Assembly (NCBI GenBank): GCA_014859175.1
Contig: JACUUQ010000006.1
Span: 1 to 36,854 of the forward strand
DNA length: 36,854 nucleotides
Direction of reading: 5' to 3'
Source: Lutibacter sp.
GTDB taxonomy: Bacteria > Bacteroidota > Bacteroidia > Flavobacteriales > Flavobacteriaceae
The translations under genes were made by a program, and so were the position numbers. Below the pieces are notes generated by a model. That model searched no databases and was not told where the DNA came from. It saw only the letters and a list, made by a program, of their open reading frames with translations. Below are positions 377 through 22,535 of the stretch, in pieces. Positions within the stretch are counted from its first letter, which is position 1; each line of letters begins with the position of its first letter.

Positions 377-571
377 GTAAAATGGAACTTTTAGTTAAAA
401 AATTGCTGCATTGATTATGCTGAAAAGCACACATTTATTTTTAAGGCGATTGACCCCAAAATATTTTTTCAAGCCACAAAATAAACACAAAACAAGAACA
501 AATTAAGAAAAGTTTAACAACATGAAATAAGGGAAAAACGATTATAAAACGACATACTGATTATTATTGTT
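377..571. other. AT-rich intergenic region
   Basis: This is the middle of a ~400-bp gap between the divergent propeller gene and dsbD. I see no convincing reading frame, hairpin or repeat in it. The promoter-like boxes flanking it and the duplicated leader element at 612-702 are listed separately. Confidence 0.5.
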
Positions 572-579
572 TAATTTTG
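572..579 (+). promoter_or_regulatory. Candidate -7 box for the dsbD transcript
   Basis: TAATTTTG matches TAnnTTTG exactly, but no good TTG lies at the expected -33 position. If used, transcription would start near 586 and include the whole repeated leader element (612-702) in the 5' untranslated region of dsbD. Confidence 0.35.
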
Positions 580-611
580 AAAATTCTTATAAAAGAAAAC
601 GAACTTTTAGT

Positions 612-702
612 ATGAACCGAGCATTACAAATTTTGACACATAAAGGAATGATTAATGGCAGGCAGCATCTGTTACCGCTAAAAAATAAAATTTAAACAGA
701 TG
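612..702 (+). repeat. Duplicated leader element, copy 1 (upstream of dsbD)
   Basis: About 75 of 91 aligned columns, with one 1-nt indel, are identical to 13078-13167. Both copies run from an ATG to the start codon of the downstream gene. Shared cores are ACAAATTTTGA, GAATGATTAATGGC, GCTAAAAAATAAAA and TTAAACAG. This copy can encode a 27-residue peptide (MNRALQILTHKGMINGRQHL...), stop at 693-695, 4 nt before the dsbD ATG at 700. The differences between copies are mostly amino-acid-changing, so selection on a peptide is not supported. A regulatory RNA or DNA element, or a dispersed repeat, is as likely. Function unknown. Confidence 0.7.
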
Positions 703-2739
703 AAAAAAATATTTTTCCTTCTGGCGTTTTTCACGCTGGTCAATTCAAGTTTTTCCCAAATTCACGACCCGGTAAAGTGGTCAACTTCCGCAGAAAAAAT
801 TTCAGATACAGAATACGATTTAATTACGACAGCAACCATTGAAGCAAAATGGCACTTGTATTCGCAAAATGTTCCTGCCGATGGGCCAATACCCACCTCT
901 TTTTTATTTAAAAAAGGTGCTGATTTTAAACTTGTCGGAAAAACTTCTGAAGAAAAGGGTGTTACCGTCCACGACCCTGTTTTTGACATGGAAATTAAGT
1001 ATTTTGAAAACAAGGCCGTTTTTAAACAGCGCGTTAAAATAAACAATTCAAAAGCTTTTAAAATTTTAGGTGAAGTTGAGTTTATGGTTTGTGACGATGC
1101 AAGTTGCTTGCCGCCAACAACAATAGATTTGACATTTTTAATTCCCGAAAATAAAGCAACTGCGGCGATTGCAAATACAGATGAAAGCAAAGAAGTTGCC
1201 GTAGATACAACTGACACGATAGAAGTTTCTGAAGCAACTGTTGTTCAAAACAAAGAAGTTGCCAAAGTTATTGCTGCAACAAACAGCAATAAAACATCAA
1301 ATAAAAGTCTGTTAACCATTTTTATCATTGCCTTCTTTTCCGGATTTGCGGCATTGTTAACGCCCTGTGTTTTTCCTATGATTCCTATGACCGTAAGTTT
1401 TTTTACCAAACAAAGCAAAAGCAAGGCCGAAGGAGTAAGGAATGCCATTATCTATGGAATTTCCATTGTGATTATTTATGTGCTTTTGGGCTTGCTGGTA
1501 AGCGCCATTTTTGGTGCCGATGCTTTAAATGCGCTTTCCACCAATGTTTGGTTTAACGTAATTTTCTTCTTGTTGCTGGTTGTTTTTGCGGTTTCCTTTT
1601 TGGGTGCCTTTGAAATTGTTTTGCCAAGTTCTTGGGGAACAAAAGTAGATGCGCAGGCCGACAGAGGTGGTATCATCGGCATATTTTTTATGGCATTGGC
1701 ACTCGCCATTGTTTCTTTTTCCTGCACCGGACCTATTGTTGGAACGCTGTTGGTTGAAGCTGCCGCAGGAGGAAACCAGATTGGCCCAATTGTAGGAATG
1801 TTAGGGTTTTCATTGGCGTTGGCCATTCCATTTGCTTTGTTTGCCGCTTTTCCCGGCTGGTTAAATTCGTTGCCAAAATCGGGCGGATGGTTAAATACCG
1901 TAAAAGTGGTGTTGGGATTTTTGGAATTGGCTTTGGCGTTTAAATTTTTGTCGAATGCCGATTTGGTGTTACAGCTTCATTGGCTGGAAAGAGAGGTTTT
2001 CCTGTCGATTTGGATTACCATATTTATGGCCTTGGCATTTTATCTCTTCGGAAAAATTCAATTGCCCCACGATTCTCCTTTAACGCATATTTCAGTGGGA
2101 AGGCTAAGTTTGGGAATGCTTTCCTTGGCTTTTGCCATTTATATGATTCCAGGTTTGTGGGGAGCGCCTTTAAATTTAATAAGTGCTTTTCCGCCAGCGC
2201 AACATTACAGTGAATCGCCATACGGAGTCGGATTTTCAAGAATGAATAGCGGCATATCTTTCGTTGAAAATATGGAAATACCGGATGGTGCGCATTTAAT
2301 GCCGCCTCACAATATTTTGGCTTTTAACGATTACGACAAAGGTTTGGCCTACGCTAAAAAAGTAAACAAGCCGGTGATGATTGATTTTACGGGCCATGCT
2401 TGCGTAAATTGCCGTAAAATGGAACAAAATGTTTGGCCAAAAGATGAAATTCTGCCAATACTTAAAAACGAGGTGGTTTTAATTTCGTTGTATGTGGATG
2501 ATAAAAGACCGCTTGCCGATGGCGAAGAAATTGAATCCAAATTGTATCCGGGGAAAAAGTTAAAATATATCGGACAAAAATGGAGCGAATTTCAAATTAT
2601 AAGGTACGGCGCCAACGCACAGCCATTTTATGTTTTGATGGACCATAACGAGGAAAATTTAACAGAACCGGTTGCCTATACGCCAAATGTGGAGGAATAT
2701 CACAATTGGCTGAAAAAGGGAATCGCAAATTTTAAATAA
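700..2739 (+). CDS. dsbD: Thiol:disulfide interchange protein DsbD-like
   Basis: This 679-residue protein moves electrons from cytoplasmic thioredoxin across the inner membrane to periplasmic reductases. A signal peptide (residues 1-19, ending SFSQ) is followed by a DsbD alpha-like domain (~25-150) with the cysteine pair C131/C136 in CDDASCLPP. The membrane domain (~203-490) carries its redox pair as C223 in [11 protein letters not shown] and C342 in [11 protein letters not shown]. The C-terminal thioredoxin-like gamma domain has CVNC at 568-571. All three cysteine pairs expected of a full-length DsbD are present. The start follows a duplicated leader element ending at this ATG. The next gene begins 20 nt downstream, so co-transcription is likely. 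Probable clients in this window are the TlpA-like lipoprotein at 19.5-20.6 kb and the TlpA-like protein at 22.7 kb, but that is inference. Confidence 0.92.
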
Positions 2740-13077: not shown

Positions 13078-13167
13078 ATGAAACGAGCCTCACAAATTTT
13101 GATACACAGTAGAATGATTAATGGCGAACAGCAGCTGTACAGCTAAAAAATAAAAATTAAACAGGTG
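13078..13167 (+). repeat. Duplicated leader element, copy 2 (inside the Bat operon)
   Basis: This element is about 82 percent identical to 612-702, beginning at an ATG and ending at the GTG start of the next gene. It can encode 22 residues (MKRASQILIHSRMINGEQQL...) with the stop at 13144-13146. The downstream gene is in the same frame, 6 codons after that stop, so readthrough or reinitiation would be possible here. In copy 1 a 1-nt insertion puts the leader out of frame. Confidence 0.7.
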
Positions 13168-14076
13168 AAAAAACAGTTATTTTATATATTATTTTTAATC
13201 GGTTTTATAAGTTTTGCACAGGAAAATCCGGTGTCAACTGTTATAGATACTGCCGACATAAGAATTGGCGAGCAAATTCAGTATAAAATATCTGTGAAAA
13301 AGAACGGCGTGGTTATTTTTCCAAAATTTGAGTCGGACAGCTTGGGAAAAGTGGAGTTGGTGGAATCGTTGCCTGTTGATACTTTAAAAGACACCTATGA
13401 AAAAAAATATGTGCTCACAAGTTTCGACAGCGGTCGCTATACCATACCAAAACAACAAGTGCTCATAAACAACAAAGCATTTTTCACCGATTCATTGCTG
13501 GTAAGCGTTGCCACAGTTAAAGTGGATACATTAAAACAACAACTATTTCCCATTAAAGCAATTAAAAGCGAACCAAAAACATTCGACGATTACAAACCGT
13601 TGCTTTGGTGGATTTTGTTGATTTTAGCAATCATCGTTACCGCTTTGTATTTTATTTTCAGAAAGAAAGAGAAAAAAGAAGTGCCAATCATCGTTGTCGC
13701 GCCAATTCAGGAAGCCTTGCAACGACTTAAAGAATTAGACGAAAAACAACTGCTTCAGCAAAACAAAATAAAAACATATTATACGGAACTTACCGATATT
13801 GTAAGAACCTATATTGAAAAAGACATTTATATTCCTGCATTGGAATCGACCACAAATGAATTGATAGATACCATAAACGATTTTAATGAGTCGAGCAAAT
13901 TGGGAATTTCAAAAGAAACAATTCAAGAATTAAAAGAGGTTTTGGAAAGCGCCGATATGGTGAAATTTGCAAAATCGAAACCAATTGTTGAAGAAATAAA
14001 AGCGCACAGAAATTTATCTGAACGCATTTTACAAAATTTAAAACCTGCAAAAGAAACAAAAAATGAAGTGGAATAA
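13165..14076 (+). CDS. BatD-like membrane protein of the Bat operon
   Basis: A 303-residue protein with a signal peptide (1-19, ending SFAQ), an extracytoplasmic beta domain (~20-140, with DIRIGEQIQYKISVKKNGVV), one transmembrane segment (~147-165) and a cytoplasmic helical tail (~170-300, with YYTELTDIVRTYIEKDIYIPALESTTNEL). The layout is a short version of BatD, which recurs downstream, and the tail resembles DUF4381-type proteins found next to VWA genes. The start is GTG at 13165: it aligns exactly with the dsbD ATG in the duplicated leader element and begins a proper signal peptide. It overlaps batA by 14 bases. No specific function is known. Confidence 0.8.
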   Translation: MKKQLFYILFLIGFISFAQENPVSTVIDTADIRIGEQIQYKISVKKNGVVIFPKFESDSLGKVELVESLPVDTLKDTYEKKYVLTSFDSGRYTIPKQQVLINNKAFFTDSLLVSVATVKVDTLKQQLFPIKAIKSEPKTFDDYKPLLWWILLILAIIVTALYFIFRKKEKKEVPIIVVAPIQEALQRLKELDEKQLLQQNKIKTYYTELTDIVRTYIEKDIYIPALESTTNELIDTINDFNESSKLGISKETIQELKEVLESADMVKFAKSKPIVEEIKAHRNLSERILQNLKPAKETKNEVE

Positions 14077-21580: not shown

Positions 21581-22371
21581 GTTGCCGCCAGTTTTCGAAT
21601 CATTTTAGAAAGCAGTTTAGGGAAAAGCCGTTTTACATAAACCGCCAGTTTTTCTTTAAATCCGCCAATATAAACTTCCTGTTTTTCCTGCCGAACCGCT
21701 TTTAATAATTTTTCGGCAAACACTTCAGGCGTTAATCCGTTTTTGGTGGCACTGTCCATTTTATTTTGTGGCGTTCCATCGGCAGTTAAAGCGTTTAGGG
21801 AAACATTGGTTTGCACAAAACCCGGACAAGCAAGTGTAATTTTAATGTTATTTTGGTAAACCTCAGCCCGCAAACTGTCGAAAAATCCGTGCAATGCATG
21901 TTTTGAAGCGGCGTAAGAAGACCGCAAAGGCGTGCCAATTTTCCCGACAATGCTGGTAATTACCACAATATAGCCGCTATTTTTTTCAATAAAATGAGGC
22001 AATAAAGCTTTTGTGAGCGCCACCGTTCCCAAATAATTCACGTCCATTAGGCGTTTGTCCACTTCCATTGCAGTGTCTTTTGCCAAAGATCGCTGACTTA
22101 CGCCGCCGTTGTTAAACAATACATCAACACCGCCAAATAGTGTTAAAGCCTCATCAACTTTGTCCGACAAACTCATGTAGTTTTCCAAATCGACAGGTAA
22201 AATTTGTACGTTTTCAGGATTTTCGCAGGCATTTTTCACGGCATTCAGTTCCTTTTCATTTCGGGAAGAGAGAATTAATTTTGTATGCTGTTTTGAAAGT
22301 GCAATAGCCAAGGATTTTCCAATGCCCGATGACGCGCCGGTAATCCAAATTGTTTTATGGTCAAAATTCAT
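21577..22371 (-). CDS. Short-chain dehydrogenase/reductase
   Basis: A 264-residue classical SDR oxidoreductase. The dinucleotide-binding motif is TGASSGIG (11-18), the structural motif NNGG (87-90), and the catalytic triad S140, Y153 and K157 (YAASK). Arginine R37 in LILSSRNEKEL suggests a preference for NADP(H). The C-terminal basic helix (YVKRLFPKLLSKMIRKLAA) resembles membrane-associating SDRs of the DHRS7 type. The substrate is unknown. It is transcribed alone; the upstream region is the structured repeat at 22421-22535. Confidence 0.88.
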   Translation of the reverse strand: MNFDHKTIWITGASSGIGKSLAIALSKQHTKLILSSRNEKELNAVKNACENPENVQILPVDLENYMSLSDKVDEALTLFGGVDVLFNNGGVSQRSLAKDTAMEVDKRLMDVNYLGTVALTKALLPHFIEKNSGYIVVITSIVGKIGTPLRSSYAASKHALHGFFDSLRAEVYQNNIKITLACPGFVQTNVSLNALTADGTPQNKMDSATKNGLTPEVFAEKLLKAVRQEKQEVYIGGFKEKLAVYVKRLFPKLLSKMIRKLAAT

Positions 22372-22420: not shown

Positions 22421-22535
22421 TGTTCCCGTTTTTTTTCGGGGCCAAAACCCTCAAAAACCGGTCGGGCTTTCCGCGGCAATCTTTTTATTGGTGAAAAACC
22501 AATAAAAAGGATTTCTGCTGCAATCCCTAACACAG
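22421..22535. repeat. Structured intergenic repeat with hairpin and direct repeats
   Basis: The element lies between two divergent genes. It contains CCCG-T8-CGGG (around 22427-22440), then a direct repeat of the form TTTCYGCKGCAATC at 22468-22481 and 22512-22525 flanking a perfect 12-bp hairpin (CTTTTTATTGGT at 22481-22492, loop GAAAA, complement at 22498-22509). Its GC-rich segments stand out from the AT-rich surroundings. It resembles the dispersed GGGCTTTCCGCTGCAATC-type intergenic elements I recall from Flavobacteriaceae genomes, in which the hairpin sequence varies while the flanks are kept. It could be a structured RNA or a non-autonomous mobile repeat; I cannot tell which. Confidence 0.6.

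Follow-up and report, generated by a model that had tools for sequence, protein, structure and literature searches.

Several kinds of small element are known to settle beside or within genes. REP sequences are short, folded and interspersed, bacterial MITEs include Correia, RUP, ERIC and BrickBuilt, and IS200/IS605 elements rely on guide-to-target pairing. Cis-regulatory leaders of the Rfam collection are structured sequences in the 5' untranslated region beside a start codon. In mitochondria, translational bypassing elements (byps) lie within coding sequence and are bypassed in translation, as passages of PMC5009743 describe. Here we compare with these systems a repeat of about 88 nt from a Lutibacter genome. 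We consider it likely that this repeat is a structured, non-autonomous mobile element that targets start codons, enters ATGAAA translation starts in the sense direction and carries its own translation-initiation region.

A repeat family with empty sites in sister genomes

The window (the whole stretch of DNA that was analyzed, 36,854 nucleotides) holds two segments, 612-702 and 13078-13167, which the first-pass annotation had described as a duplicated element. The duplication is real: aligned over 91 columns, the segments have 75 identities, 15 mismatches and one gap column, a likeness far beyond chance. Their right ends coincide with start codons, ATG at 700 and GTG at 13165, exactly as had been proposed. 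The features of the two copies are given below.

612..699, + strand: element copy 1, at the dsbD start codon; left ATG at 612-614, right ATG at 700-702 (the dsbD start); 73.7 bits with covariance model R1; site empty in sister genomes, e.g. loci L103 and L104
612..617, + strand: left target-site copy of copy 1, ATGAAC (consensus ATGAAA), which now begins a short upstream open reading frame (uORF); the empty site in sisters reads ..TTTTAATATGAAAAAAATA..
666..671, + strand: CATNTG box of copy 1 (CATCTG), the 5' arm of stem 2, covarying over 30 sequences; 108 arm combinations suggest that it may also pair with the left ATG
697..702, + strand: CAN'ATG of copy 1 (CAGATG), the 3' arm of stem 2, which includes the dsbD start codon
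700..2739, + strand: dsbD-like gene with Pfam DsbD_N, DsbD_TM and thioredoxin domains; its start codon bears copy 1
13078..13164, + strand: element copy 2, at the start codon of a Bat-operon gene; 73.0 bits with model R1; site empty in sister genomes, e.g. L077 and L080
13132..13137, + strand: CATNTG box of copy 2, here CAGCTG, with one mismatch in stem 2 (from sequence and alignment)
13162..13167, + strand: 3' arm of stem 2 in copy 2 (CAGGTG), with GTG as the start codon; GTG also occurs in sister genome G030 (locus L070)
13165..14076, + strand: Bat-operon gene bearing copy 2, flanked by DUF58/VWA and BatA-like genes; no Pfam match at E 1e-5

Model R1 was built on 30 sequences that included window copy 1 (as locus L001) and excluded copy 2, and its next-best match in the window reaches only 20.7 bits (E 0.21).

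The duplication in the window is the tip of a large repeat family. A blastn search of the source genome (3.07 Mb in 354 contigs) with positions 580-720, in which 40 of 184 initial candidates were scored, gave at least 65 matches, including 50 at E < 1e-15, and the genome holds at least 60 distinct whole or partial copies, either single or in head-to-tail tandem. The covariance-model search added copies on contigs beyond the blastn matches. Arrays of the element probably break the assembly, because at least 18 contigs have a copy less than 250 bp from their end.

We compared the dsbD and bat-gene sites across the genus, where the locus was returned in 30 of 38 genomes for each gene. The dsbD site is filled in 8/30 and the bat-gene site in 6/30. 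An empty dsbD site reads TTTTAAT-ATGAAAAAAATA and a filled one TTTTAGT-ATGAACCGAGC...TTTAAACAG-ATGAAAAAAATA, i.e. about 88 bp are extra, with ATGAA at both ends and the right ATG serving as the start of the gene. This start codon is intact behind the A-rich 3' end of the element, which reads TAAAAAACAATAAATATAAAC-ATG in several families. In this comparison the insertion target is ATGAAA at dsbD and the bat gene alike. The insertions are confined to particular lineages and their sites are empty in sister genomes; the annotation's suggestion of a dispersed repeat that donates a 5' untranslated region was right in essence. The dsbD start of distant genus members (L099, L118 and L128) bears different element subfamilies, which points to repeated insertion at this one start codon.

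Element length is about 88 nt, ranging from 64 to about 130 among the matches seen. The 64-base match (L446, G395:C1:1071414-1071477) has a very short stem 1 loop and lies directly before an ORF of more than 500 aa; from this example, the large first loop of the element may be dispensable. Of 119 sources (the window, 38 source-genome regions and 80 other loci, with the 34 loci L209-L242 excluded), 118 yielded arrays, 137 in total. One unit is present in 94 arrays, two in 34, three in 6 and four in 3, and the unit-to-unit distance is 87-89 in 33 of 42 cases. The joints between head-to-tail units are the same as the insertion joints (ATGAA). Units of a second family (B) have the ATGAAA joint in common with the first family and alternate with it in arrays.

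The target hexamer and the bias toward gene starts

All array loci were chosen for carrying the element, and gene starts were judged by a crude ORF rule. On this basis, 92 of the 137 arrays abut an ORF of at least 100 aa, 4 an ORF of 60-99 aa and 17 a shorter closed ORF; the other 24 were set aside on account of a truncated locus or element or a missing ATG. Thus 96 of 113 judged arrays (85%) abut an ORF of at least 60 aa. This is well above the expected proportion of about 45% (p = 2e-18), which derives from non-coding ATGAAA sites, 127 at starts or small ORFs vs 155 elsewhere (127/282). The 45 arrays of the source genome divide into 28 at a start, 5 not and 12 set aside (28/33 judged), and those of other genomes into 68, 12 and 12. 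ATGAA stands in 94/96 right flanks, and codon 2 is AAA in 89/96 compared with 30% of 426 background ORFs.

The bias recurs in G200, a finished genome made up of a single 4.13-Mb contig, where 33 matching pieces, 30 of them with a locus, yielded 29 arrays. The best nine G200 copies are 98-100% identical to the query. Of these arrays, 27/29 (93%) lie at an ORF start vs 76/142 non-coding sites in a 400-kb sample (p = 6e-6). Among copies with at least 94% identity, 12/13 are at starts (p = 0.004), so the bias is present in young copies. The first-pass annotation had proposed to look for many matches ending at start codons, and the outcome is strongly positive in both sets; such matches do not by themselves show regulation, since they are insertion sites.

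The minimal target is the ATGAAA hexamer, and a start codon as such is not required, because 17 of the 113 judged arrays abut no ORF of at least 60 aa and 8 of 30 class-wide loci lack one of 100 aa at the right ATG. Four of these 17 arrays (L022, L027 and two in L197) precede another likely start by no more than about 45 bases, in one case by eye, and four more are followed by a second-family unit (two in L150, L147 and L183). The L013 copy (2047-2138), also one of the 17, seems to interrupt a coding sequence (HepT-like by eye), with GATGAA as its site. The class-wide search found an ORF of at least 100 aa at the right ATG in 22/30 loci, and at least two of the eight loci lacking one precede another unit. 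An extended motif beyond the hexamer was rejected: 76 occupied and 98 free ATGAAA starts are much alike, with 5 of 140 uncorrected tests at p < 0.01.

These numbers bear on the alternative that starts are not targeted at all, in which any ATGAAA is entered, insertions in coding sequence are purged, intergenic ones are lost by deletion, and copies at starts are what remains. The clear target hexamer, the non-start copies and the one apparently intragenic copy would all fit such sorting. It would have to contend with the fact that non-coding ATGAAA sites away from starts are about as common as those at starts (127:155 and 76:66 for start vs other sites), but starts account for 85% and 93% of the arrays, and that the 13 most consensus-like G200 copies are biased as well. 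We therefore regard this alternative as unlikely. In the preferred reading of a start-codon-targeting element, start codons would be struck since ATGAAA is the commonest gene start in these genomes and its A-rich, presumably unstructured context favors insertion or retention.

Two stems, one CAT box and candidate movers

Two stems occur in all families: stem 1 near the left ATG, then stem 2 ending in the ATG of the gene. A consensus-like copy has a folding z-score of -3.3 as RNA and -2.0 as DNA. RNAalifold predicted no pair on alignment A1, and the named stems were scored by pair counting instead. Across 30 sequences collected without regard to pairing, stem 2 has a middle pair of C-G in 15, G-C in 12 and A-U in 3, with a covariation score of 0.211 vs 0.053 in shuffles (reached by 0/500). 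Alignment A2 combines 30 sequences from several families. Its members were selected for stem 2 pairing, as were the CATNTG scan sets and the arm combinations described below; stem 1 was unselected and changed on both sides in 6/6 pairs. The whole-structure covariation score of A2 is 0.300 vs 0.115 in shuffles, again reached by 0/500. Standard pairs fill only 66% of stem 1 cells in A2, and the number of further pair types is not above shuffles (446/500 in the first set, 485/500 in A2). Scanning 1.5 Mb of partly overlapping loci for CATNTG...CAN'ATGA gave 178 occurrences with complementary N and 16 with non-complementary N, a count that includes the same copy repeatedly where loci overlap, and uncovered further families. 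Many Lutibacter copies, window copy 2 among them, have a mismatch in stem 2.

Because of its distance from stem 1, the CAT box would also be able to pair with the left ATG, and a single box could close two mutually exclusive stems, one per ATG. Only positions beyond the ATG and CAT count as evidence for the left pairing, since both motifs were required by the search. The base opposite A4, which was not required, is G in 56, C in 32, A in 20 and never T among 108 arm combinations. Some of the non-standard stem 1 cells are G.A/A.G at two adjacent positions; these occur in about 65 of the 108 combinations, and the positions are Watson-Crick in about 30, from other families.

Two further kinds of palindrome occur within element copies. 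GGCAGG/CCTGCC palindromes are nested once or several times at one point, GCGAA^CAGC, between stems 1 and 2, a REP-like repeat within another repeat; elsewhere, copies carry another palindrome (TCCCGAA...TTCGGGA or close to it) in place of the stem 2 5' arm.

L014:115-227, L041:3626-3730, L133:280-417, L139:3301-3432, L172:1350-1480, L184:5663-5796: copies bearing GGCAGG/CCTGCC
L171:3417-3617 (two in tandem), L111, L145:6947-7048, L130:1903-2009, L200:6021-6128: copies with a replaced stem 2 arm

From these features we infer a mechanism in which the element moves as a folded single strand and is mobilized by an unlinked enzyme, with its one CAT box, pairable with either the left or the right ATG, acting as a built-in guide for the ends and the target. 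After insertion, the gene would be translated from the element's own A-rich initiation region, and the old start codon would open a short uORF that ends before the gene. A broader proposal, to which we give a little less than an even chance, is that a class-wide, start-codon-reading family exists, in which one CAT box, common to two alternative hairpins, pairs with the ATG of the left end, the right end and the target. This would yield exact insertion at ATGAAA and replace the host initiation region with that of the element, allowing selfishness without breaking genes and leaving a ready-made start-codon switch wherever the element landed.

No mobilizing enzyme was found in the searches of Y1 genes, reverse transcriptases and partial copies. 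Among the partial matches and the G200 partial matches there was neither a longer autonomous copy nor a pair of separated left and right ends around a gene; partial matches off locus ends are single decayed or palindrome-interrupted copies. One candidate mover is a single-strand transposase of the Y1 (HUH) class, as in TnpA-REP/IS200, which would make the element REP-like, with end hairpins, fixed flanking target and no inverted termini. Folded ends, a fixed short target, a fixed orientation and tandem arrays all speak for such an enzyme, as does a Bacteroidetes subclass of Y1 genes, on either side of which PMC6006769 describes unusual structures that recur at other places in the genome. Within the genus, a PF01797 match is present in 14/17 element-rich vs 5/21 other genomes (p = 0.0008, kinship ignored; element-rich meaning at least 8 matches, with per-genome counts as lower bounds). 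Outside the genus, where element-rich means at least 5 matches, the association vanishes, with PF01797 in 10/11 element-rich vs 16/20 element-free genomes (p = 0.63). G411 (100% complete) has 10 element copies and no PF01797 match, and G018 and G028 (88% complete) likewise have copies and no such match.

Physical linkage was assessed in 80 Y1-gene loci (251 kb), in which the model search detected three clear element copies:

L403: 1.3 kb from a RAYT gene
L243: about 10 bases beyond an IS200 copy
L405:1912-2005, - strand: at the GTG start codon of a RAYT gene, whose orthologue in L400 has no copy

Weak partial matches were seen in L361 (E 0.011) and in L359 = L408 (E 0.077). The element is not linked to Y1 genes, because three copies compare with about five expected at the density of rich genomes, one copy per 30-50 kb; the L405 copy at a RAYT start codon is perhaps there by chance. 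RAYT genes are flanked by other palindromes rather than by element copies (by eye), and the ends of the one IS200 family compared (four copies, from G043 and G200) are unrelated to the element. In the flanks of L399-L418, several RAYT genes of Lutibacter and its relatives each have their own long palindrome, e.g. GCGCGGATTTGCAATCCGTGCC and CGAAGTC..GACTTCG (by eye), which would fit a separate REP family for every RAYT. A replication-strand bias was rejected as well: G200 arrays are oriented 15:14 relative to replication (13/25 where the skew is clear, with the origin inferred from GC skew), compared with 191:107 for sampled genes, and this is unlike the lagging-strand habit that passages of PMC6006769 describe for IS608 and ISDra2. 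With association confined to the genus and no linkage, we set aside the Y1 transposase as the mover and consider a REP-like origin of this kind unlikely.

RNA-mediated mobility fared no better, as reverse transcriptase (PF00078) matches occur in 4/14 genomes and are missing from the other 10, several of them carriers (G010, G163, G144 and G018). Separately, G200:C1 has 19 reverse-transcriptase matches, 13 with the same score and several clustered, which probably represent an expanding group II intron family.

Host genes, spread and comparison with known systems

Ten element-bearing genes could be identified and have no common function. Matches above model cut-offs comprise dephospho-CoA kinase (coaE), DapB, MiaA, MnmA, RlmH, Fmt and PheT; phosphoglycerate-kinase-like, cystathionine-beta-synthase-like and photolyase-like proteins fall below them. 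Several of these ten genes are essential in many bacteria, so expression of the host gene should survive insertion. The Bacteroidetes phylum is mostly without Shine-Dalgarno pairing, and an A-rich region before the ATG, like the 3' end of the element, suits initiation in it.

The ORF opened by the left ATG spans 4 to 37 codons across 90 copies, plus one running into the gene, and it stops before the gene start in 88/90. This variation led us to reject a leader peptide as the conserved unit: the peptide that the first-pass annotation had read in each copy is true of some copies and not general. Its guess that the nucleic acid, not the peptide, may be what is conserved gains support from the two covarying stems and the variable uORFs. 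Taken as a whole, its interpretation is partly supported; the other reading it offered, a leader family controlling envelope genes, is unsupported, the neighbors including cytosolic housekeeping genes.

A related alternative is that copies are kept because they regulate. The CAT box would pair with the left ATG, leaving the start free, or with the right ATG, masking it, and uORF translation or some cue would set expression. Such a switch would make sense of two mutually exclusive pairings that can use one CAT box, of a stem 2 that includes the start codon of the gene, of uORFs that end upstream of it in nearly all copies, and of an architecture that recurs across Bacteroidia. It sits poorly with sites that are lineage-specific (6/30 and 8/30 filled), host genes without a common function, near-identical copies at different genes in G200, the tolerance of old copies for a disrupted stem 2 and for GTG as start codon, and uORFs of unconserved length; we find it unlikely, slightly more so than either the unselective-insertion or the Y1 alternative. 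Descent of the dsbD and bat-gene copies from one ancestral 5' leader, or resemblance by chance, which the two copies seen in the window might have suggested, is refuted by the at least 60 genome copies and the exact empty sites.

By blastn, the first family is found in 44/100 genomes (the source genome included) and 11/48 genera. The covariance model, which covers several families and was run class-wide with a short calibration, matches at E <= 1e-4 in 39/247 Bacteroidia genomes (again including the source), spanning 24/142 genera and 20 family labels, with up to at least 17 copies per genome. Judged from these searches, the element appears to be widespread in Bacteroidia. One consensus query had no match among INPHARED phages or PLSDB plasmids, and one exact pattern none in IMG/VR.

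We know of no precedent in bacteria for a repeat that enters and doubles start codons and hands the gene a new initiation region, and a title search of the open-licence PMC literature returned no title on start-codon-inserted repeats. If the preferred reading of a start-codon-targeting element is true, many Bacteroidia genes, essential ones included, would be translated from an initiation region derived from a mobile element. The neighborhood of the start codon would be a safe harbor for mobile DNA. Orthologous starts with empty and filled sites would then offer natural replicate experiments on translation initiation, and the element may explain assembly breaks and tandem leaders.

By the features tested, the element is a small non-autonomous mobile repeat and is neither a REP, nor IS200-derived, nor an Rfam member. 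With REPs and their TnpA-REP (RAYT) enzymes it has in common a short, folded, high-copy, interspersed and non-autonomous sequence that is presumably moved in trans; REPs are palindromes with a GTAG/CGTC tag, whereas the element has two unlike stems with one common CAT box and lies at ATGAAA starts, and no conserved GTAG- or CGTC-tagged palindrome is present in alignments A1 and A2. Subterminal hairpins, a fixed short flank and orientation specificity are likewise found at the ends of IS200/IS605-family elements; the element differs in having no tnpA between its ends, ends unrelated to those of the one IS200 family compared, and no replication-strand bias.

Rfam cis-regulatory leaders resemble it as structured 5' UTR sequences beside the start codon, but the element is mobile, precedes many unrelated genes and has no Rfam match: none on any copy at gathering thresholds in 7 sources, where three Flavo-1 matches lie elsewhere, and, over window positions 560-760, nothing credible even at E values as high as 10. 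The Flavo-1 RNA (RF01705) of the window is at 22456-22535 on the - strand (59.2 bits), 85 bases upstream of an ORF starting at 22371 (- strand), and Flavo-1 also occurs in L034 and L014.

MITEs of DNA-transposon origin are similar in being small, non-autonomous mobile repeats near genes with a duplicated target, and the element is non-autonomous, interspersed and mobile (at least 60 copies, empty sites). It departs from them in its one fixed target, its one orientation and its duplication of the gene's start codon. Among the partial matches searched, including those of G200, no pair of ends pointed to terminal inverted repeats derived from an IS. A term count of a prokaryotic MITE review (PMC10969869) gave no occurrence of 'start codon'. 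Finally, byps resemble the element as short inserts that genes tolerate; they lie inside the coding sequence in the passages of PMC5009743, whereas the element lies before the coding sequence and supplies its start codon.
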